Shown here in pieces: positions 20,005-33,062 of a stretch of 34,902 nucleotides of DNA. The notes beneath the pieces are model-generated. The model had not been told where the DNA came from and made no database searches. It worked only from the letters and a program-made list of their open reading frames with translations. A program made the position numbers and the translations under genes. Source of the stretch: Comamonadaceae bacterium (GTDB lineage: Bacteria; Pseudomonadota; Gammaproteobacteria; Burkholderiales; Burkholderiaceae_C); NCBI GenBank assembly GCA_947450255.1, contig CANFVA010000012.1:1-34902 (forward strand), given 5' to 3'. How positions within the stretch are numbered: the first letter of the stretch is position 1; each line of letters begins with the position of its first letter.

Positions 20005-21312
20005 TCAATTGCCGGTGGTGAAGCTAAAGGTGCTATCAAAGGGCGTTGACCCTGAACTACCTCTGACATGTACGGTGTACCTGCTGTTGGGTAGCAAGGG
20101 ACTGTCCGGTATCAAAAATGCCGTGTCCGTGGCCAAACCCTCATTTTTGTCGCTTGCATGGTTCAGTATGGGCAACAAAACAAGAGTCTGGTTGAGCGCG
20201 TCATGGATAGTGGCATCATCCAACGTCAGCACTTTTTTCTTACCTGCGACCACCATAATCGGCTGGCCCACGGGATTACGCCCCAGATTGCGTCCCGGAA
20301 CTGGATTGGGGAACTCACTGCTCAGCTTGGTCGCGGTTGCCGTGGTACCTTGGCAGGGATAGGTGACGATACCGTCCGTTTGTAGCTCCAAGCTTTCCTC
20401 ATGCTTGCGGGCATCCGAGCCCAAATTGACCACCAAGGCAGCACCGCGACGGGTTTGGTTGAGATCCGCCAGCGGGTTGGCTGCACTCACTGCGATCGAA
20501 ATGCCGACCGAATGGTAGCCACCAAAAGCACCGGTCATGTGATAAGGCGCAGCCATCAAGCTGCGCATACGCGTCACGCCCTCGATTCTCCAATTCGGTA
20601 CTTCCGTTGAGTTCGCAAAAAACTGCGTATTTAAAATTTCTCCAATAAATCGGTAGTCGTAGTCCACGGCATCTGCACGGTCTCCCACTTCCACGCCCGT
20701 AAAGCCCGGGGTGCCCGGTGTCTCGGTATGGCTGCTGACCCAATTTTTCAGGATCCAAAGCGCATGACTTCGGGCTGCGATGTCCAACTTTGCATCGCGC
20801 TGAATCGGCGTAAATCCACAACGGCTTCGCTCTGCAGAAAGTAGCTGATACACGGCATCCGCCCCTTGTTTCGCGCTCAAAGAAGGCTCGGAATACACGC
20901 TATTGACTTGCCCCGGTGCGACAGGCTGACTTGGCGTCGATGCAGGAGGCGTAGGAATAGATGCTGAGGGGCTTGGCGTCGATGCAGGAGGCGCAGGAAT
21001 AGATGCTGTGGGGCTTGGCGTCGATGCAGGAGGAGCAGGAATAGATGCTGTGGGGCTTGGCGTCGATACAGGAGAAGCAGGAATAGATGCTGTGGGGCTT
21101 GGTGTGGACGCTGGGTACAGGGGAGCCGGCGCAGGCGCTGCCGAAGCAACGATTTGAGGGGTTTGCACCAGAGGCCGAATAATTTGCGACGGGGGAGGTA
21201 ACTGCGCCTGGGTTTCAGGGTCTGCTGGCAGCGGCGTTTCTTCCTTACCCGCACCACCGCATGCACTGAGCAGGATGCAAAAAAAGGCGAAAAATACTGA
21301 TATTTTTTTCAT
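20005..21312 (-). CDS. Lipoprotein with Pro/Ser/Thr-rich repeat linker and CAP/SCP-like domain
   Basis: Lipobox LLSACGG; linker of repeated STPSPTASIPAPPA; CAP-like LLSAERSRCGFTPIQRDAKLDIAARSHALWILKNWVSSHTETPGTPGFTG. Confidence 0.75.
   Translation of the reverse strand: MKKISVFFAFFCILLSACGGAGKEETPLPADPETQAQLPPPSQIIRPLVQTPQIVASAAPAPAPLYPASTPSPTASIPASPVSTPSPTASIPAPPASTPSPTASIPAPPASTPSPSASIPTPPASTPSQPVAPGQVNSVYSEPSLSAKQGADAVYQLLSAERSRCGFTPIQRDAKLDIAARSHALWILKNWVSSHTETPGTPGFTGVEVGDRADAVDYDYRFIGEILNTQFFANSTEVPNWRIEGVTRMRSLMAAPYHMTGAFGGYHSVGISIAVSAANPLADLNQTRRGAALVVNLGSDARKHEESLELQTDGIVTYPCQGTTATATKLSSEFPNPVPGRNLGRNPVGQPIMVVAGKKKVLTLDDATIHDALNQTLVLLPILNHASDKNEGLATDTAFLIPDSPLLPNSRYTVHVRGSSGSTPFDSTFSFTTGN
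20933..21100. repeat. Four in-frame 42-bp tandem repeat units (plus partial fifth) in lipoprotein linker
   Basis: Unit ggcgtcgatgcaggaggcgcaggaatagatgctgtggggctt at 20933, 20975, 21017, 21059 with few substitutions; 14 codons each. Confidence 0.95.
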
Positions 21313-21497
21313 GCACATTGAACTTCCTTGTACTTTCTTATTTCGCATGTTTAATCATATCCATATTTATTGTTTAAATAACAAATAAAAATTTAATCAT
21401 TCCTTTGCCGTCATGGTGCTTGGCAGCTTCGCCACGCCTGCAGCGGCACTAGCGCCTCTTTTAAAATTCGACCGGTCGCTATCGACTACGGAGCTTT

Positions 21498-24118: not shown

Positions 24119-25759
24119 ATGCCTGCCACCCGCCCCATCCGCAGCACCATGATGCCGGTGCCCCTGTCGCTCAACCATTTACTCGACCGCGCAGGCCAGC
24201 TATTTGCCAGCAACGAAATCGTCTCGCGCCTGCCCGACAAATCACTGCGCCGCCACAGCTATGGCGCTTTTTACGCCCGCACCCGCCAGTTGGGCCAAGC
24301 CCTGTTGGACTTGGGTTTGCAGCCCGGCGACCGGGTGGCCACGCTGAGCTGGAACCACCACGCGCACCTGGAGTGCTATTTCGGCATCCCCGCCGCAGGG
24401 GGCGTGATGCACACCCTGAACTTGCGCTTGGCGCCGGACGAAATCGCCTGGATCGCCAACGACGCCAAGGACCGTTTTCTGGTGGTGGACGATGTGCTGC
24501 TGCCCTTGTTGGCGCAGTTCCAAGGCCAGTGTGCATTTGAAAAAATCATCGTCTTCCCGTTTTCGGGCGCGCCAGTGGCAGCGCCGTATTTGGATTACGA
24601 GGCCCTGTTGGCTAAGGCCGATGGCGCCAAGTTTCAGTACGTGGCGCACCTTGAAGACGACGCGGTGTCCATGTGCTACACCTCGGGCACCACGGGCAAG
24701 CCCAAGGGCGTGGTCTATTCGCATCGGTCCACGGTGCTGCACACCTTGGTGGGCTGCCTGGGCGATTGCTGGGGGCTGCGTGGCGCCGATGTGGTGATGC
24801 CGGTCACGCCCATGTTCCACGCCAACAGCTGGGGCATGCCTTATGGCGCGGTGATGATCGGCTGCAAACTGGTATTTCCCGGCCCGCATTTGCACCCGGA
24901 CGATTTGCTGGACCTGATGCAACTGGAGCCGCCCACGCTATCGCTGGGCGTGCCGACAATCTGGATGAGCCTGATCCAAACCTATGAGGCCTCTTTGGTC
25001 AAAGAGCCCGGTCGCTGGAAATTACCTGCTGGTATGCGCAGCCTGGTCGGCGGAGCCGCAGTGCCCGAGGCCCTGATACGCGCTTTTGACAAGCACGGCA
25101 TCTGGATTCAGCAAGGCTGGGGCATGACCGAGACCTCGCCGCTGGCCACGGTGTCTTACACCAAATCCGAATTCATCCACACAGACGCAGACGAGCGCTA
25201 CCGCCGCGCTGCCATGGCCGGCATTCCTGTCCCACTGGTGGACATCCGTATGCGTGGCGACGACGGGCTGGACGCGCCCTGGGACGGACAGTCGGTAGGC
25301 GAAATACAAGTGCGCGGCCCCTTCATCACCGGTAGCTACCACGAAGTGCCCGTCAGCGAAGAGAAGTTCAGCGCCGACGGATGGCTGCGCACCGGTGACG
25401 TAGCGTCTATGGATGCGCACGGTTTTGTGCGCATTACCGACCGCACCAAAGACCTGATCAAATCCGGCGGCGAGTGGATTAGTTCGGTTGATCTGGAGAA
25501 CGCGCTGATGGGCCACGCCGATGTGGCCGAGGCGGCCGTTATCGCCGTCCCAGACGCCAAGTGGAGCGAGCGACCGCTGGCGTGCGTGGTGGCCAAGCCA
25601 GGCAAGACGCTGGACTATGCCGCGCTCAACGCGCATTTACTAGCTAACGGTTTTGCCAAATGGCAACTGCCCGAACGCTACGAAAGCATTGGCGCAGTGC
25701 CGCGTACTTCTACCGGCAAGTTTTACAAGCTGAAGTTGCGGGAGATGTTTCCGGCTTGA
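24119..25759 (+). CDS. Fatty-acyl-CoA synthetase / AMP-dependent ligase (medium/long-chain)
   Basis: AMP-binding motif SMCYTSGTTGKPKGVVYSHRS, QQGWGMTETSPLATV, GWLRTGDVASMDAHGFVRITDRTKDLIKSGGEWISSVDLEN. Start could alternatively be 24149. Confidence 0.93.
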   Translation: MPATRPIRSTMMPVPLSLNHLLDRAGQLFASNEIVSRLPDKSLRRHSYGAFYARTRQLGQALLDLGLQPGDRVATLSWNHHAHLECYFGIPAAGGVMHTLNLRLAPDEIAWIANDAKDRFLVVDDVLLPLLAQFQGQCAFEKIIVFPFSGAPVAAPYLDYEALLAKADGAKFQYVAHLEDDAVSMCYTSGTTGKPKGVVYSHRSTVLHTLVGCLGDCWGLRGADVVMPVTPMFHANSWGMPYGAVMIGCKLVFPGPHLHPDDLLDLMQLEPPTLSLGVPTIWMSLIQTYEASLVKEPGRWKLPAGMRSLVGGAAVPEALIRAFDKHGIWIQQGWGMTETSPLATVSYTKSEFIHTDADERYRRAAMAGIPVPLVDIRMRGDDGLDAPWDGQSVGEIQVRGPFITGSYHEVPVSEEKFSADGWLRTGDVASMDAHGFVRITDRTKDLIKSGGEWISSVDLENALMGHADVAEAAVIAVPDAKWSERPLACVVAKPGKTLDYAALNAHLLANGFAKWQLPERYESIGAVPRTSTGKFYKLKLREMFPA

Positions 25760-25775
25760 ATGCGCAATGGCTTAG

Positions 25776-25906
25776 GGAAGGTCTGCATAAGTCCGTCATC
25801 GCGAGGAGCGCAGCGACGCGGCGATCCATAAATGCTTGATTGGCAAACAAAAATGGATTGCTTCGCTACGCTCGCAATGACGGATTTGGATTTATGCAGA
25901 GGTTCC
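25776..25906. mobile_element. 131-bp MITE-like palindromic element, copy 1
   Basis: GGAAGGTCTGCATAAGTCCGTCAT...ATGACGGATTTGGATTTATGCAGAGGTTCC terminal inverted repeats, flanked by TTAG direct repeats (25772-25775, 25907-25910); inverted copy at 28850-28980. Confidence 0.85.
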
Positions 25907-25958
25907 TTAGGCGGAAAAACCGCTGAATCAAAGTGCCAATGCACGGCACCGAAATCAG

Positions 25959-28694
25959 TTATTTAACTGGCCCAGCGGTCACTACCACCATATTTGACGT
26001 ATCCACGAGTTTTTTAGCAGCAGCATCGATCTCTTCGATCGTCAGGTCTTGCATGATGCCGATCTTCTCTTCGTACCAAGCAGCGCTGCGTTCCCGGCCC
26101 AGCAGCGCTGCGGATTCAGCGCGCAACAGTTCATCGACCATGTAGCTATCACTACTTAAGCCCTGCTCTATGGACTCCGCTAAAGTGCGCTTGGCGAAGA
26201 ACAGTTCTAAAGAACTCAAACCCTGGCTGGAAATTTTTTTCAAGGCATCGCGCGTCGCTTTATCAAAGGCCGCGAGATTTTTGGGAGCAAAACTCCCGTA
26301 GACATAAAAACTTAGGAAGGCGTCAGATTCGTTGGGCTCCAACTGTGCGCCAACGGCGTAAGAAAGGCCCTTCTCCTCCCGCACTTCTTTAAAGAACCGT
26401 GACGCGGCACCGCCCCCAATGATGCCGCTAGCGATTTGCATAGCCAAACCCTCGCGGGACCACGGATCAACAGGTATCCTTTTTGCCATAAGTCGCACAC
26501 TGTTAGGCTTATCGGGCGTGTTAATTTCAACAGCATTAGCGCCATATGCATACCAAGGATTGGGTATGCGCGCATAGCTCTCAGCGCCGCCGGGAGTCTG
26601 CCAGTCACCGAAGCTGCGTAAGATGTCACGTTGTACTACTGCAACATCCAGGGCACCAACGGCAGCGAATTCCCCCACACTGGCACCCGCAAATTGGCGC
26701 CAAAATCGCTTGACATCTTCTACCTGCAAGGTTCGAAATTGGGCAAGCAATTCTTCGCCGGATCGGACGTAACGTGGGTCGTCGAACGCATACGGTGTTG
26801 CCAATAATTTATTGACAGCAGTGTGTACCAAGGCGCCTTGGTTACTTTGTTGCTCTAATAAGCTTCCAACAATCTCTTGCCGCCATTTCGAAAAACTTGA
26901 TTCGTCGAAAGAAGGATTGCGCAACACGTCATGCAACAATTTGGAAAATGCGGGCCAGTTAGCACGTGTGGTTTGAAAATTGACATTCAAGCCACCATAG
27001 TCGGAAAAGACCTGCATCTTACTTTTCAGCTGCGCAAGTTGTGATTGAATTTGCAATTCACTGCGCGTCAAACTGCCTTTGAGCAATAGACTTCCCACAT
27101 GCACTGCGACCCCCTGGCCTCGCAAACTATTTTCATTACCCCAGCGTAGTTGTAATCGCCCTACGAGTTGATCGTTAATCGCCGGGCGGGGCAGCAAAAT
27201 CAGGTGAAGCTGACCATTGATTTTGCTTCGAATAGTGCGCTTTTCAATCTCAGCAACCGTGGGCTCAAAGCGCGCAAGCGCAGGTAACTTGTCTGCGCTG
27301 GCATCCGCCTGAGATTGCGCTACATACTCACCCAAATCTTGCGCTTGCGGCAAGGGCGCGCGCACCGGATCATCTTCTGGAATGAACGTCACGCGCACCC
27401 GGTTAGCGTCTACCAAATAGGCTTTGGCAACACGCTGGGTATCGGCCACACTGACGGCCCGTAGCTTATCCCTGTAAAAAAATCCTAGACGCCAATCACC
27501 ACCGGCTGCGGCACCCGCAAGGCTAGACCCGAACGCATCTGCACTACTTGTCGCTTGCGCTTGAAAATTTTCAAGTGCACGGCGCGCGTCCTCTAACTCC
27601 TGCGGGGTTACACCATTTTGCGCGATGGCAGCTATGTGACGCAGTACCAGAGCCTGTACTTGCTCGCGTGCCTCGGCATCTAGCAATTGCATACCGATAG
27701 CAAATGCACCCTCCTGACGCATGGATCGATGCATTGCCCAGGGCGAACTACCCAAACCCTGGCTTTCAAAATCAACGCGAAAACGCCCACCACCCGCACT
27801 CACTAGCGAATGGGCCACGATGTCCAGCACGGCATCATCCGGATGCGCATGGGGCACGCCGCGCCAACTCATACGCATGATGGGGGCACTACCGACACGG
27901 CGAATAATGGCTTCGCGTACACCTTGTTGCACCGGTTCACGGGTATAAACCGTAGGCAGCGGGACGCTGGGGTTTGTCAGTGGCCCAAATACGGATTGAA
28001 TATGGGCGAGTACTGCTGCAGCGTCGAACCGCCCGGCCACCACCAGCACCATATTGTCCGGGCGGTACCAGGTTTTGTTAAAAGCCTGCAGTCTTTCAAT
28101 ATTGATATTTTCTATATTGGATTGGATGCCAATTACCGGCCTGCCATAGCCATGGTTAGGAAATGCCAAAGCCATACCGGCGTCATACACCGCCCGATCC
28201 GGGTACGTGGCAGATAGTTCAAATTCATTGCGAACCACGCTCATTTCACGGTCCAAATCTTGTTTTGCGATAAAACTATTGACCATGGCATCAGCCAGCC
28301 AGCCAAGGTACCAGCGAAGGTTCTCCGCATCCGGATTCATGCTGGCGAAGTACTGTGTGCTATCTAAGTCGGTAGTACCGTTGTAATAAAAACCGCGGTT
28401 AGAAAATTCTTTCGCCGGGTCGCGCGTAGTGGGCGTGCCCTTAAAAACCATGTGCTCCAGCAAGTGCGCCATTCCGCCTTCACCAAAGCCTTCGACCGCG
28501 CTGCCTGCTTTGACTACCAAGTGCGTGTAGCTTCGGGTGTGCAAGTCATTGGGCGCTAGCAGGACTTGTAGTCCATTGGTCAGGCGGTACTCGGTGACGC
28601 CCTCCATGCTGCGAATAAGGGTTTGGGCACCAGACGTGACTGGCGCAAGCAAACCAAGAAATAGCAGGTAAATAAAGCAGTAAATCGATCTCAT
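25959..28694 (-). CDS. M16 family zinc metallopeptidase (two-domain, secreted)
   Basis: Signal peptide MRSIYCFIYLLFLGLLAPVTSGA; inverzincin motif MAHLLEHMVFKGTP; second M16-like half. Start at 28694 preferred over ORF start 28823. Confidence 0.92.
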   Translation of the reverse strand: MRSIYCFIYLLFLGLLAPVTSGAQTLIRSMEGVTEYRLTNGLQVLLAPNDLHTRSYTHLVVKAGSAVEGFGEGGMAHLLEHMVFKGTPTTRDPAKEFSNRGFYYNGTTDLDSTQYFASMNPDAENLRWYLGWLADAMVNSFIAKQDLDREMSVVRNEFELSATYPDRAVYDAGMALAFPNHGYGRPVIGIQSNIENINIERLQAFNKTWYRPDNMVLVVAGRFDAAAVLAHIQSVFGPLTNPSVPLPTVYTREPVQQGVREAIIRRVGSAPIMRMSWRGVPHAHPDDAVLDIVAHSLVSAGGGRFRVDFESQGLGSSPWAMHRSMRQEGAFAIGMQLLDAEAREQVQALVLRHIAAIAQNGVTPQELEDARRALENFQAQATSSADAFGSSLAGAAAGGDWRLGFFYRDKLRAVSVADTQRVAKAYLVDANRVRVTFIPEDDPVRAPLPQAQDLGEYVAQSQADASADKLPALARFEPTVAEIEKRTIRSKINGQLHLILLPRPAINDQLVGRLQLRWGNENSLRGQGVAVHVGSLLLKGSLTRSELQIQSQLAQLKSKMQVFSDYGGLNVNFQTTRANWPAFSKLLHDVLRNPSFDESSFSKWRQEIVGSLLEQQSNQGALVHTAVNKLLATPYAFDDPRYVRSGEELLAQFRTLQVEDVKRFWRQFAGASVGEFAAVGALDVAVVQRDILRSFGDWQTPGGAESYARIPNPWYAYGANAVEINTPDKPNSVRLMAKRIPVDPWSREGLAMQIASGIIGGGAASRFFKEVREEKGLSYAVGAQLEPNESDAFLSFYVYGSFAPKNLAAFDKATRDALKKISSQGLSSLELFFAKRTLAESIEQGLSSDSYMVDELLRAESAALLGRERSAAWYEEKIGIMQDLTIEEIDAAAKKLVDTSNMVVVTAGPVK

Positions 28695-28849
28695 GGCACC
28701 ACCGTCCCTTCCAATATGATTATTTATATGATAACTAAATTGGAAATTACACGGGCAATGAGGTGCCGTGGGATGCGCCTTAACCCGACCAGGACGGCGA
28801 AAAAGCGAGGCAGAAGGCGACATAGCGCTGTCCGATCAGGGTCGCCTAA

Positions 28850-28980
28850 GGAAGCGCTGCGTAAGTCCAAACCCGTCATTGCGAGCGCAGCGAAGCAATC
28901 CATTTTGGCTTGCCTATTAAGCACTTATGGATCGCCGCGTCGCTGCGCTCCTCGCGATGACGGACTCATGCAGACCTTCC
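28850..28980. mobile_element. 131-bp MITE-like palindromic element, copy 2 (inverted relative to copy 1)
   Basis: Reverse complement aligns to copy 1 without gaps (12 substitutions over the 141 nt including flanks, by hand); flanked by CTAA (28846-28849, 28981-28984). Confidence 0.85.
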
Positions 28981-29023
28981 CTAAGTCTCCGATAGAGGTC
29001 TGCTTATTGGCAAGCAAGCAGGG

Positions 29024-29755
29024 CTATTTGAGCCACTGCGGATCGGGCAATTGTCCGAACACCTGGCGCAGACCCTGGCTCCAACTGCTGCGCAAGTCTC
29101 TGAAGTACGTATCTTCGGCGTCTATGCGGTGCCTTTTGGTCACCCGCAAGTCATTGGTTTTGACCATGGCCACATCAATCGGCAGACCCACCGACAAATT
29201 ACTTTTGATGGTCGAGTCGAACGAAACCAAGGCGCATTTGATGGCCTGCGACAGGCTGATGCCGGGCTGAATGACACGGTCCAAAATCGGTTTGCCGTAT
29301 TTGCTCTCGCCGATCTGGAAAAACGGTGTGTCGGCTGTGGACTCGATGAAATTGCCTTGCGGATACACCATGAACAAACGCGGCGCTTCGCCTTTGACCT
29401 GGCCGCCGACCAAAAACGTGGCGGTGAAATCCACATCGCTTTGTTCAGGCGCTTCGTTCCTAGTGGTGTGTATGGTTTTGCGCAATTCGCGGCCCACCAG
29501 TTCGGCCACGGTAAACATGGAGGCATGGGCCGTCAGTGGCTTGTCTTCATCCAAAGCGCGTTGCTTGACGCGGCTGATCACTTGCTGCGTGGTCGCCAGG
29601 TTGCCGCTGTTAAGCATGACGACGACACCTTGGCCCGGTGTTTCAATAACCGTCATCTTGCAAAACGTGGACACATGGTCCACGCCCGCGTTGGTGCGCG
29701 AGTCCGAGGCGAACACCAGTCCTTCGTCGAGCACCATGCCAACACAGTAAGTCAT
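29024..29755 (-). CDS. anbu: Anbu, ancestral beta-subunit proteasome-type protease
   Basis: TYCVGMVLDEGLVFASDSRTNAGVDHVSTFCKM N-terminus and ~243 aa size; downstream of transglutaminase/alpha-E/ATP-grasp genes as in known Anbu operons. Confidence 0.93.
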   Translation of the reverse strand: MTYCVGMVLDEGLVFASDSRTNAGVDHVSTFCKMTVIETPGQGVVVMLNSGNLATTQQVISRVKQRALDEDKPLTAHASMFTVAELVGRELRKTIHTTRNEAPEQSDVDFTATFLVGGQVKGEAPRLFMVYPQGNFIESTADTPFFQIGESKYGKPILDRVIQPGISLSQAIKCALVSFDSTIKSNLSVGLPIDVAMVKTNDLRVTKRHRIDAEDTYFRDLRSSWSQGLRQVFGQLPDPQWLK

Positions 29756-29765
29756 GCCTAAAGCC

Positions 29766-30569
29766 TTATTGCTGATCGTAAGTGCTTGATTCTACTTTTG
29801 CGTAGCTGTGCATGGTTTCATTGCCGCCACCTATGCGCATGCCGCGCACCGGGCTGGCGTCTTCGTAGTCCAGGCCGTGCGCCAGCCGTATGTGGCCTCG
29901 GTCTGCGTCACTCGAATTGCTGACGTCATAGCCTATCCAGCGCCCACCCACCCAGGCCTCGGCCCAGGCGTGGCTGGCCACTTGCTCGTTGTGCGCGGAA
30001 TGCAAATAGCCGCTGACGTAGCGCGCCGGTACACCCAGAAAGCGCGCGCACGCCACAAACACATGGGTGTGGTCCTGGCACACACCTTTGCCTTTGGCGA
30101 AGGACTGGGCCGCCGAATCGCCGACGTGGGTGATGCCGGTTTCATAGGGCATGCGCTCCAGCAAAGCCAGCATGACATCGTGCAAAGCCATGTAAGGGCG
30201 CGATTTGACCGTGGCGCGAAAAGGTTCGATAAAACTTTGCATGGCCGCGTCCACGCTGGTCAAGGTGGTAGCGCGTAAATACACCGCATGCGGTACCGTG
30301 CCCTCGGGCTCGCCCTGGTCTGAATCGGTCAAGTCCACGCTGCCGCGCGCGCGCAACACGATGTCCTGGCTGGCGTTTTCCAGCACCAGACAATGGCACA
30401 AATTGCCATATGCATCTGTCCAAGGAGTGGCTTTGCCGGGCAAGTCCAGTTGCCAGTGCAACACGTTTTGCCTTTGGGTTTTGGCCGGGGTCATGCGCAG
30501 CATTTGTATGCTGCGGCGCACCGGCTGTTCGTAGCGGTAACTGGTTTCGTGGAACACCTGTAGCTTCAT
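29766..30569 (-). CDS. Transglutaminase-like family protein
   Basis: MKLQVFHETSYRYEQPVRRSIQMLRMTPA N-domain; GKGVCQDHTHVFVACARFLGVPARYVSGYL core with catalytic Cys; SHAWAEAWV His. Confidence 0.93.
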   Translation of the reverse strand: MKLQVFHETSYRYEQPVRRSIQMLRMTPAKTQRQNVLHWQLDLPGKATPWTDAYGNLCHCLVLENASQDIVLRARGSVDLTDSDQGEPEGTVPHAVYLRATTLTSVDAAMQSFIEPFRATVKSRPYMALHDVMLALLERMPYETGITHVGDSAAQSFAKGKGVCQDHTHVFVACARFLGVPARYVSGYLHSAHNEQVASHAWAEAWVGGRWIGYDVSNSSDADRGHIRLAHGLDYEDASPVRGMRIGGGNETMHSYAKVESSTYDQQ

Positions 30570-31516
30570 GCGATGGACTCCAGGTAATCGGTTTGCACGG
30601 CTTCGGCCAGTGCGATGTTTTCTTTGACAAACAGCTCCAGGTAATTTTCCAGACCGCTGTCGTAGACCTCGCTCAAGCTGCCGAATTTCAAATTGGTCAA
30701 CAAGTTGGCGCAACGCTTGCGCGCCTCTCGCCCGGTTTGCTGCGGCAACTGGTTCAGTATGTATGCGGTTTCGTCCAGACAAAAATGCAGCGAACGCGGC
30801 ACCCGCGGGTTGAAGATCAGCAGCTCGGACACGCGGTCTGCGTCTATGGCGTCGCGGTAGGTGTCGCGGTAAGCCTCTAGCGCACTGACCGAGCGCAGCA
30901 CCGCACCCAGGCGGTAATAGTCGTCCACCAAATCGTTGGTCTCGCCTTGTTCCACCTGTGTTTTGACGCTCAGTATGCGCGCCGTGTTGTCGGCGCGTTC
31001 CAGGTAAGTGCCCAAGCGGATGAAGTGGTAAGGCTGGTCGCGCTGAATCGTGGCAAAGGTCACGCCCCGGAACAAATGCGAGCGTTGCTTGATCCATTCA
31101 AACAGCGAGGAGTCCACCGGGTGGTCCGGGCCTTTGATTTTCTTTTTGCGCGCCAACAACTCCAGCCAGGTGTCGTTGATGCATTCCCACATCTCCACCG
31201 TCATGGCACCGCGCACCGAGCGTGCGTTTTCGCGGCAGGACTGTATGCAATTGAAAATGGACGACGGATGGTCCGGGTCCCAGGCCAAAAACTGGGCCAC
31301 CTGGTCGGAGCGCATGGGCCGGCCTGTGGCTTGGAAGGCAGACAAGGTGTCGGTGATGACCAGCGGTTCGCTGACCGTGTCCGGCGCGGCGCGGCTGTTG
31401 TCAGAGCTGGAAAGCAGGGCGAAGGACTGGCCGACTTCCAAAATACGCGCCATGTTTTCGGCGCGCTCCAGATAGCGCGACAGCCAATACAGTTGTGCAG
31501 CAACACGTGACAGCAT
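30566..31516 (-). CDS. Alpha-E domain-containing protein (DUF403)
   Basis: MLSRVAAQLYWLSRYLERAENMARILEV; YHFIRLGTYLERADNTARILSVK; overlaps neighbours by 3-4 nt. Confidence 0.93.
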   Translation of the reverse strand: MLSRVAAQLYWLSRYLERAENMARILEVGQSFALLSSSDNSRAAPDTVSEPLVITDTLSAFQATGRPMRSDQVAQFLAWDPDHPSSIFNCIQSCRENARSVRGAMTVEMWECINDTWLELLARKKKIKGPDHPVDSSLFEWIKQRSHLFRGVTFATIQRDQPYHFIRLGTYLERADNTARILSVKTQVEQGETNDLVDDYYRLGAVLRSVSALEAYRDTYRDAIDADRVSELLIFNPRVPRSLHFCLDETAYILNQLPQQTGREARKRCANLLTNLKFGSLSEVYDSGLENYLELFVKENIALAEAVQTDYLESIA

Positions 31517-32937
31517 CAGAGCGCCTCCTCGTCTTCCAGCACCCAGGTGTCTTTGGTGCCGCCGCCTTGGGATGAATTGACCACCAGCGAGCCTTCGCGC
31601 AACGCCACACGCGTGAGACCGCCGGGCACGATGCGCGTGTCCTTGCCCATCAGCACAAAGGGACGCAAATCGATGTGGCGCGGCGCAATGCCTTGGTCGA
31701 CAAATATCGGACATGCCGACAAACTCAGCGTGGGCTGGGCGATGTAGTTATCCGGCTGCGCTTTCAAGCGCTTGGCAAAACTCTCTATTTCCGCTTTGCT
31801 GGCGGTGGGGCCGACCAGCATGCCGTAGCCGCCGGCGCCATGGACTTCTTTGACCACCAGTTGGGACAAATTGGCCAGCACATGCGACAACTCATCGGGC
31901 TTGCGGCATTGCCAGGTTTGCACATTGTTGAGTAGCGGCGTTTCGTCCAAGTAAAAGCGAATCATGTCAGGTACATAAGGGTAAATCGATTTGTCGTCGG
32001 CCACGCCTGTGCCCAACGCGTTGGCGATCACCACATTGCCCTGGCGGTACACCGACGCCAGACCCGGCACGCCAATCAGTGAATCCGGCGCAAAACTCAA
32101 AGGGTCCATATAGACATCATCGACGCGGCGGTAAATCACATCGACTTGCTGCGGGCCTTCGGTGGTTTGCATGTACACATGGCCGCCGCGCACAAACAAG
32201 TCCGAGCCTTCGACAAGTTCTATGCCCATTTGCTTGGCCAAAAACGCATGCTCAAAATACGCGCTGTTGAAACGCCCCGGCGTGTGCAACACCACCGTGG
32301 GCTGGTCCACCCAACTGGCCGAGCGCAAGGTTTGCAGCAGCAGGGCGGGATAGTGCTCGACCGGCCGCACCGCGTAGCGACGGAACAAATCGGGGAACAA
32401 ACGCATCATCAACAAGCGGTTGCTCAGCATGTAAGACACGCCGGAGGGCACCCGCAAGTTGTCTTCCAGCACATAAAAATCGCCGTCCGAATGCCGCACG
32501 ATGTCTACACCGGCGATATGGGCGTAAATTTGATGCGGTAAATCCAAACCGAGCATGACGGGCATGAACTGGGCGTTGGCAAGAATTTGTTCGGCGGGGA
32601 TCAAGCCTGCTTTTAAGATGCGTTGCTCGTGGTACACATCGTGCAAAAACATATTGATGGCTTTGACGCGTTGCACCAGGCCTTTTTCCAAGTGCGCCCA
32701 TTCTTTGCCGTGGATGATGCGCGGAATCAAATCTGAGGGAATCAGCCGCTCGGTGCCGCCTTCGTCGCCATTGAGCGAAAACGTGATGCCGGTGCGCCGG
32801 AAAATCAGGTCTGCCTCGGTTTGCTTGACTTGAATGGTGTCCGCCGACACGCCTTTGAGCCAGGTGTCAAAGGCTGCGTAATGCGGGCGGGCGATGCCCT
32901 GCGCGTCGCTCATCTCATTAAATATCGGGCTGCTCAT
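31516..32937 (-). CDS. Circularly permuted type 2 ATP-grasp protein (DUF404/DUF407)
   Basis: FSLNGDEGGTERLIPSDLIPRIIHGKEWAHLEKGLVQRVKAINMFLHDVYHEQRIL; VLEDNLRVPSGVSYMLSNR; VKEVHGAGGYGMLVGPTAS. Start at 32937 with GGAG ribosome-binding-like site. Confidence 0.94.
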   Translation of the reverse strand: MSSPIFNEMSDAQGIARPHYAAFDTWLKGVSADTIQVKQTEADLIFRRTGITFSLNGDEGGTERLIPSDLIPRIIHGKEWAHLEKGLVQRVKAINMFLHDVYHEQRILKAGLIPAEQILANAQFMPVMLGLDLPHQIYAHIAGVDIVRHSDGDFYVLEDNLRVPSGVSYMLSNRLLMMRLFPDLFRRYAVRPVEHYPALLLQTLRSASWVDQPTVVLHTPGRFNSAYFEHAFLAKQMGIELVEGSDLFVRGGHVYMQTTEGPQQVDVIYRRVDDVYMDPLSFAPDSLIGVPGLASVYRQGNVVIANALGTGVADDKSIYPYVPDMIRFYLDETPLLNNVQTWQCRKPDELSHVLANLSQLVVKEVHGAGGYGMLVGPTASKAEIESFAKRLKAQPDNYIAQPTLSLSACPIFVDQGIAPRHIDLRPFVLMGKDTRIVPGGLTRVALREGSLVVNSSQGGGTKDTWVLEDEEAL

Positions 32938-32976
32938 CGGGACTCCGCGTTTTCCAACTAAGGGGCAACAATGCCT

Positions 32977-32993
32977 AAGCACGCATCGTGCCG
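32977..32993 (-). promoter_or_regulatory. Candidate sigma54 (-24/-12) promoter of the Anbu operon
   Basis: Minus strand CGGCACGATGCGTGCTT vs consensus TGGCACG-N4-TTGCW; GG and GC 12 nt apart; predicted start about 30 nt upstream of ATP-grasp ATG. Confidence 0.55.
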
Positions 32994-33062
32994 CCTGCAC
33001 ATTGGGCATGCTAAGGCATGTGCGCGGATTTGCCTAAGTCGTTGCACCAAAAAAGGTCGCAC

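Follow-up and report, generated by a model that had tools for sequence, protein, structure and literature searches.

Two inverted repeats around a peptidase gene

In the 34,902-nt stretch of DNA analyzed here (the window), a gene for an M16 family zinc peptidase lies between two inverted copies of a short repeat, and the locus raises the question of what these repeats are, what moves them, and whether they ever moved the gene that they enclose. We consider it highly probable (roughly 0.86) that they belong to a family of about 32 MITEs, chimeras of IS5 ends and a dimer of CGTC-tagged palindromes that are moved in trans by an IS5-family transposase, and that the peptidase gene is a bystander.

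The inverted pair (25771-25913 and 28843-28985; 143 nt, 92% identity) comprises two elements of 131 bp each, at 25776-25906 on the plus strand and 28850-28980 on the minus strand, when the limits are set at GGAAGG...TTCC. The preliminary description had reported an inverted pair of this size with some 12 substitutions and with 4-bp direct repeats; its positions were exact to the base, 12 substitutions were counted (119/131 identical), and both repeats were perfect, TTAG around the left copy (25772-25775 and 25907-25910) and CTAA around the right copy (28846-28849 and 28981-28984). The end sequence of the elements is GGAAGGTCTGCATAAG. On the left copy, the IS5-type terminal inverted repeat GGAAGGTCTGCATAAGTC occupies 25776-25793 (plus strand), and the opposite terminal inverted repeat at 25889-25906 (minus strand) reads GGAACCTCTGCATAAATC from the outside in. 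The left copy sits between convergent gene ends, and the right copy separates the stop of an upstream proteasome-family gene from the M16 start. The M16 gene (insulinase type; 25959-28694, minus strand) is the only long coding sequence between the elements, as had been described (PF05193, 6.7e-50; PF00675, 4.8e-26); its open reading frame spans 25959-28823, but translation probably begins at 28694, which gives a signal-peptide-like N terminus.

Two other features of the window were observed. An operon-like group at 29024-33009 (minus strand) encodes a circularly permuted ATP-grasp protein, an alpha-E domain protein, a transglutaminase, and a proteasome-family peptidase. Near-identical 42-bp tandem units, giving four overlapping 84-nt matches, were seen at 20930-21139, inside a 447-amino-acid open reading frame at 20005-21348 (minus strand).

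A MITE family that moves as whole units

The source genome is a MAG of 2.71 Mb (210 contigs, 85.6% complete). Further copies, for which the preliminary description had proposed a search, were found there: 32 in all (E ≤ 4e-13), plus fragments, with no transposase gene inside the ~131-bp copies. In 17 of the 23 copies that reach 80% identity, the two 4-bp flanks agreed at three or more of the four positions, with 7 perfect matches among them; control flanks taken 5 bp further out did so in none of the 23. The flanks fit YTAR on the left in 14/23 and on the right in 12/23, and several older copies had imperfect duplications.

Orthologous loci in sister genomes were both empty and occupied. The MAG contig CAJBBZ010000267.1 of an uncultured beta proteobacterium (G020) has the same gene order around M16 as the window, with M16 in the same orientation. 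It carries an orthologue of the left copy (C267:7711-7853, 96%), and its site for the right copy is empty, with a single CTAA, an allele of the kind that the preliminary description had suggested looking for in relatives. The joined flanks of eight other copies were searched against five sister genomes, and three of the eight gave base-exact empty sites with one YTAR: copy L003 (CTAA) in G018, G020, and G130; copy L010 (CTAG) in G130 and G020; and copy L002 (TTAG) in G035. Copy L002 was present at the orthologous site in G130 and G002, as was copy L005 in G020. Since the units gained or lost between sister species run to the GGAAGG ends, it is the whole 131-bp element that moves; the elements are MITEs that moved as entire units.

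The peptidase gene as a bystander

The pair could also be read as the two ends of a larger unit that imported, moves, or inverts the peptidase gene, and the preliminary description had raised the possibility of such a mobilizable cassette. The inverted orientation of the copies and their 92% identity would fit this reading, as would the GC content of the M16 gene, which is below that of its surroundings, and its distribution within the genus, in that the only orthologue (86% identity) is in G020 and the other same-genus genomes searched had nothing above 37% identity. However, the M16 gene of G020 has the same position and orientation, next to the left copy, and the right site is empty there; the copies are therefore independent insertions of different age, the left one being the older, on either side of a gene that was already present. 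Moreover, each copy has its own duplication, TTAG and CTAA, rather than one duplication surrounding the whole 3.2-kb segment; the right copy is no nearer to the left copy (119/131) than to copies elsewhere (122/131 to one in G035, 121/131 to one in G020); and chance alone would place approximately 1.1 pairs of copies within 3.1 kb of each other, given 32 copies in 2.71 Mb. Between the window genome and G020, the M16 segment showed no inversion. We therefore regard a composite cassette as very improbable. The M16 gene predates the right MITE and was moved by neither, an ordinary outcome for a bystander gene. By the mechanism that we favor, the left copy would have inserted beyond two convergent gene ends before the split from G020, and the right copy upstream of M16 after it.

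Base composition had been offered as a hint of a foreign segment. The individual sequence lines quoted in its support (45% and 60% GC) were correct but exaggerated the difference, which is 52.6% for the gene against 59.0% for the window, and the low GC is common to G020. Because the orthologue there has 52.0% GC, low GC is a property of the gene itself and not of a MITE-borne segment; being low in both genomes, it points to a gene that may be lineage specific or acquired.

Full-length IS5-family elements with the same ends

Full-length elements with matching termini were present in three sister genomes. The complete genome G106, of the same genus, has a 1,163-bp IS, flanked by CTAG at either end, whose reading frame of 324 codons is intact; G020 has a 1,179-bp IS with an intact transposase (81% identical); and G019 carries another full-length IS with these ends. 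The transposase matched the NCBIfam IS5 family model NF033581 (4.6e-97) and also the Pfam models PF01609/PF05598. The MITE ends are identical at 18/18 positions to the IS ends of both G020 and G106. Together with the multiple copies, the duplications, and the empty sites, these matching full-length IS bear out the earlier proposal of IS5-type MITEs with YTAR targets; none of the three absences named there as refuting it (of further copies, of empty-site alleles, and of an IS with such termini) held. A second IS copy in G106 (L119; C3:171115-175672) has its transposase frame in two fragments approximately 4 kb apart, apparently split by another inserted element.

No IS5 transposase was found in the source genome by searches with PF01609 and with the G106 protein in an assembly that is 85.6% complete and in 210 contigs, and its absence may reflect either loss or an assembly gap. 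This result weighs against the mobilization in trans by an IS5-family transposase that our reading proposes.

The interior of an IS5-family MITE typically, though not universally, derives from the parent IS by deletion. An interior of that origin was ruled out for the present elements: in comparisons with four full-length IS, similarity to the MITEs ended after the terminal ~18 bp, and all four IS lacked a CGTC palindrome inside. These MITEs are like other IS5-family MITEs in that their ends start with GGAAGG, their duplications are 4-bp YTAR, they are noncoding, and a full-length IS5 relative has the same ends; they are unlike them in that the interior is not IS derived and consists of a palindrome dimer that also stands alone in other bacteria.

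A CGTC-tagged palindrome dimer as the interior

The interior, which the preliminary description had overlooked, has no relation to the IS and is made up of two CGTC-tagged palindromes. Its 91-bp core forms an inverted dimer, consisting of CGTCAT[C/T]GCGAG...GC[A/G]ATCCA, a loop, and then the mirror of that sequence, and in both window copies the CGTC tags point outward and the CCA tails inward. In the left copy, arm 1 (CGTCATCGCGAG...GCGATCCA) lies at 25794-25828 on the plus strand and arm 2 (CGTCATTGCGAG...GCAATCCA) at 25854-25882 on the minus strand; in the right copy, arm 1 is at 28928-28962 (minus strand) and arm 2 at 28874-28902 (plus strand). The arms carry the CGTC tag, complementary AT at stem positions 1 and 2, and a CCA tail (CGTCATTGC...GCAATCCA), and each is predicted to fold with five contiguous stem pairs and an interrupted inner stem.

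These traits recall the CGTC-tagged REPs of Di Nocera, De Gregorio and Rocco (2013), which are described as follows: they have an AT stem start and a CCA tail, are mostly inverted dimers, occur mostly in alphaproteobacteria but in several phyla, have stems of 8 to 9 pairs with loops of 4 to 5, and include Neisseria dRS3 and Rickettsia RPE-4/RPE-6 (PMC3733652). The same paper describes them as apparently lacking a dedicated transposase, offers mobilization by a broad spectrum of transposases as a hypothesis only, and mentions one comparable framing of a CGTC REP (PMC3733652). By comparison with that text description, the tag, AT stem start, CCA tail, inverted dimers, and intergenic dispersal are alike, as is the fact that many of the core-bearing genomes found here are also alphaproteobacterial. 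The stem is a less good fit, with 5 contiguous pairs predicted here versus the 8 to 9 given in the published text. The dimers here further differ from REPs as portrayed there in lying between IS5 ends that are bordered by target duplications.

QMITE2 of Coxiella burnetii is also a REP-containing MITE, known both at full size and in small versions that consist of the REP only, but it differs in having a GTAG REP and duplications of 7 to 11 nt, and the role described for IS1111 is to insert into QMITE2, not to move it (PMC5896051). A literature search with raw sequence strings of the element returned nothing relevant. What is new here is the chimeric makeup, in which a CGTC palindrome dimer is carried between IS5 ends.

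The core also stands alone. Without these ends it is present in other genomes of the same genus, and unframed at a few places in the source genome itself (e.g., C23:25103). It was matched in 16 other genomes of the order, in some of them framed, and in 20/299 genomes of the phylum, at up to 219 sites per genome, compared to zero matches for a reversed control pattern in the same 299. It also occurs in Novosphingobium aromaticivorans, and stand-alone alphaproteobacterial copies are inverted dimers as well. The flanks of nine examples from other classes had no excess of inverted repeats. The framed element was absent from viral contigs (by a strict end-plus-core pattern) and from plasmids; matches to replicons were to unframed cores only, on those of Novosphingobium and Halomonas. 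In viral contigs, CGTC palindromes gave matches in at least 120 stretches, often as inverted dimers, and some of these matches may be host DNA in provirus contigs.

Which part of the chimera moves

Such stand-alone copies could be taken to mean that the dimer is the mobile part, inserted repeatedly by some unknown REP transposase into empty MITEs with IS5 ends. Besides the unframed dimers of the source genome and of many other bacteria, this reading can draw on other genera, where different IS5-like ends enclose the same core. Against it, what is polymorphic within the genus is the entire 131-bp element, with its boundaries at the GGAAGG ends, the near-full copies have identical junctions between ends and palindrome, and no core-less MITE with these ends was noticed in passing. 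We therefore think it improbable that the dimer is the mobile part; the palindrome was more plausibly captured between IS ends than the reverse.

In the favored mechanism, each unit is a nonautonomous chimera in which 18-bp IS5-family terminal inverted repeats surround the inverted CGTC palindrome dimer. An IS5-family transposase (~320 amino acids, from the 1.16- to 1.18-kb elements of sister species) would bind the MITE ends in trans, cut, and insert the 131-bp unit at a YTAR tetranucleotide, which is duplicated in the process, and the palindrome would spread as a passenger of the IS5 system. With CGTC dimers inside units that have IS5 ends, target duplications, and empty sites in sister species, and with a full-length IS of the same ends in the genus, the question of the mover becomes directly testable.

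A different explanation would place mobility in the distant past and have the elements retained for a function at gene ends, as terminators or RNA hairpins. The left element does fold, on either strand, as one long hairpin (-60.9 and -64.3 kcal/mol; z scores of -6.6 and -9.5), and 7/23 copies lie between convergent open reading frames by a rough call of those frames. Yet copies are polymorphic between sister species, and no promoters or T-run terminators were called at the elements, regional counts being no higher than in shuffles. Retention for such a role thus appears unlikely as an account of the family, and effects on transcripts are possible. A search of Rfam gave no match up to E = 5 in 25700-29060.

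The same core between other ends in other genera

In other betaproteobacterial families, several cores lie between different ends of IS5 style. In G266 the core is framed by CTAA followed by GGAAGCGCTAATTAATT..., in G205 and G095 cores have similar GGAA..GCTGA.. ends, in G172 the end is GGAAGCTCTGCATAAG, and in G206 (L175) the arrangement is TTAG, GGAGCCTCCGCACAACCTCG...CGAGGTTGCACAGAGGCTCC, TTAG. Flank pairing exceeded the 95th percentile of mismatched flank pairs in 5 of 16 tested loci. Relatives of the present transposase in genera with differently framed cores were limited to partial matches, in G086, and no IS matching those other ends was found. Different IS5-like ends around one core suggest repeated capture, from the few loci examined. 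A broader proposition, that betaproteobacterial CGTC palindromes have time and again recruited IS5-family transposases as a general vehicle, would accommodate the several end types in different genera; we put it forward tentatively, as a possibility short of even odds. If true, it would provide a means of movement for a superfamily of repeats that was said to have none.

The palindromes themselves vary between loci. At L206, L209, L212, and other loci of the phylum, very variable inner hairpins lie between CGTCATTGCGAG and GAAGCAATCCA and remain self-complementary (e.g., GCACAGATTTTTTCTGTGGC and TATTTTTATAAAAAATA). In G172, which belongs to another family (L178 and L192), the palindrome is CGTCTTTGCGAG...CTCGCAAAGACG, with the same change in both arms, as if the arms were kept matched by hairpin conversion or by selection on pairing.
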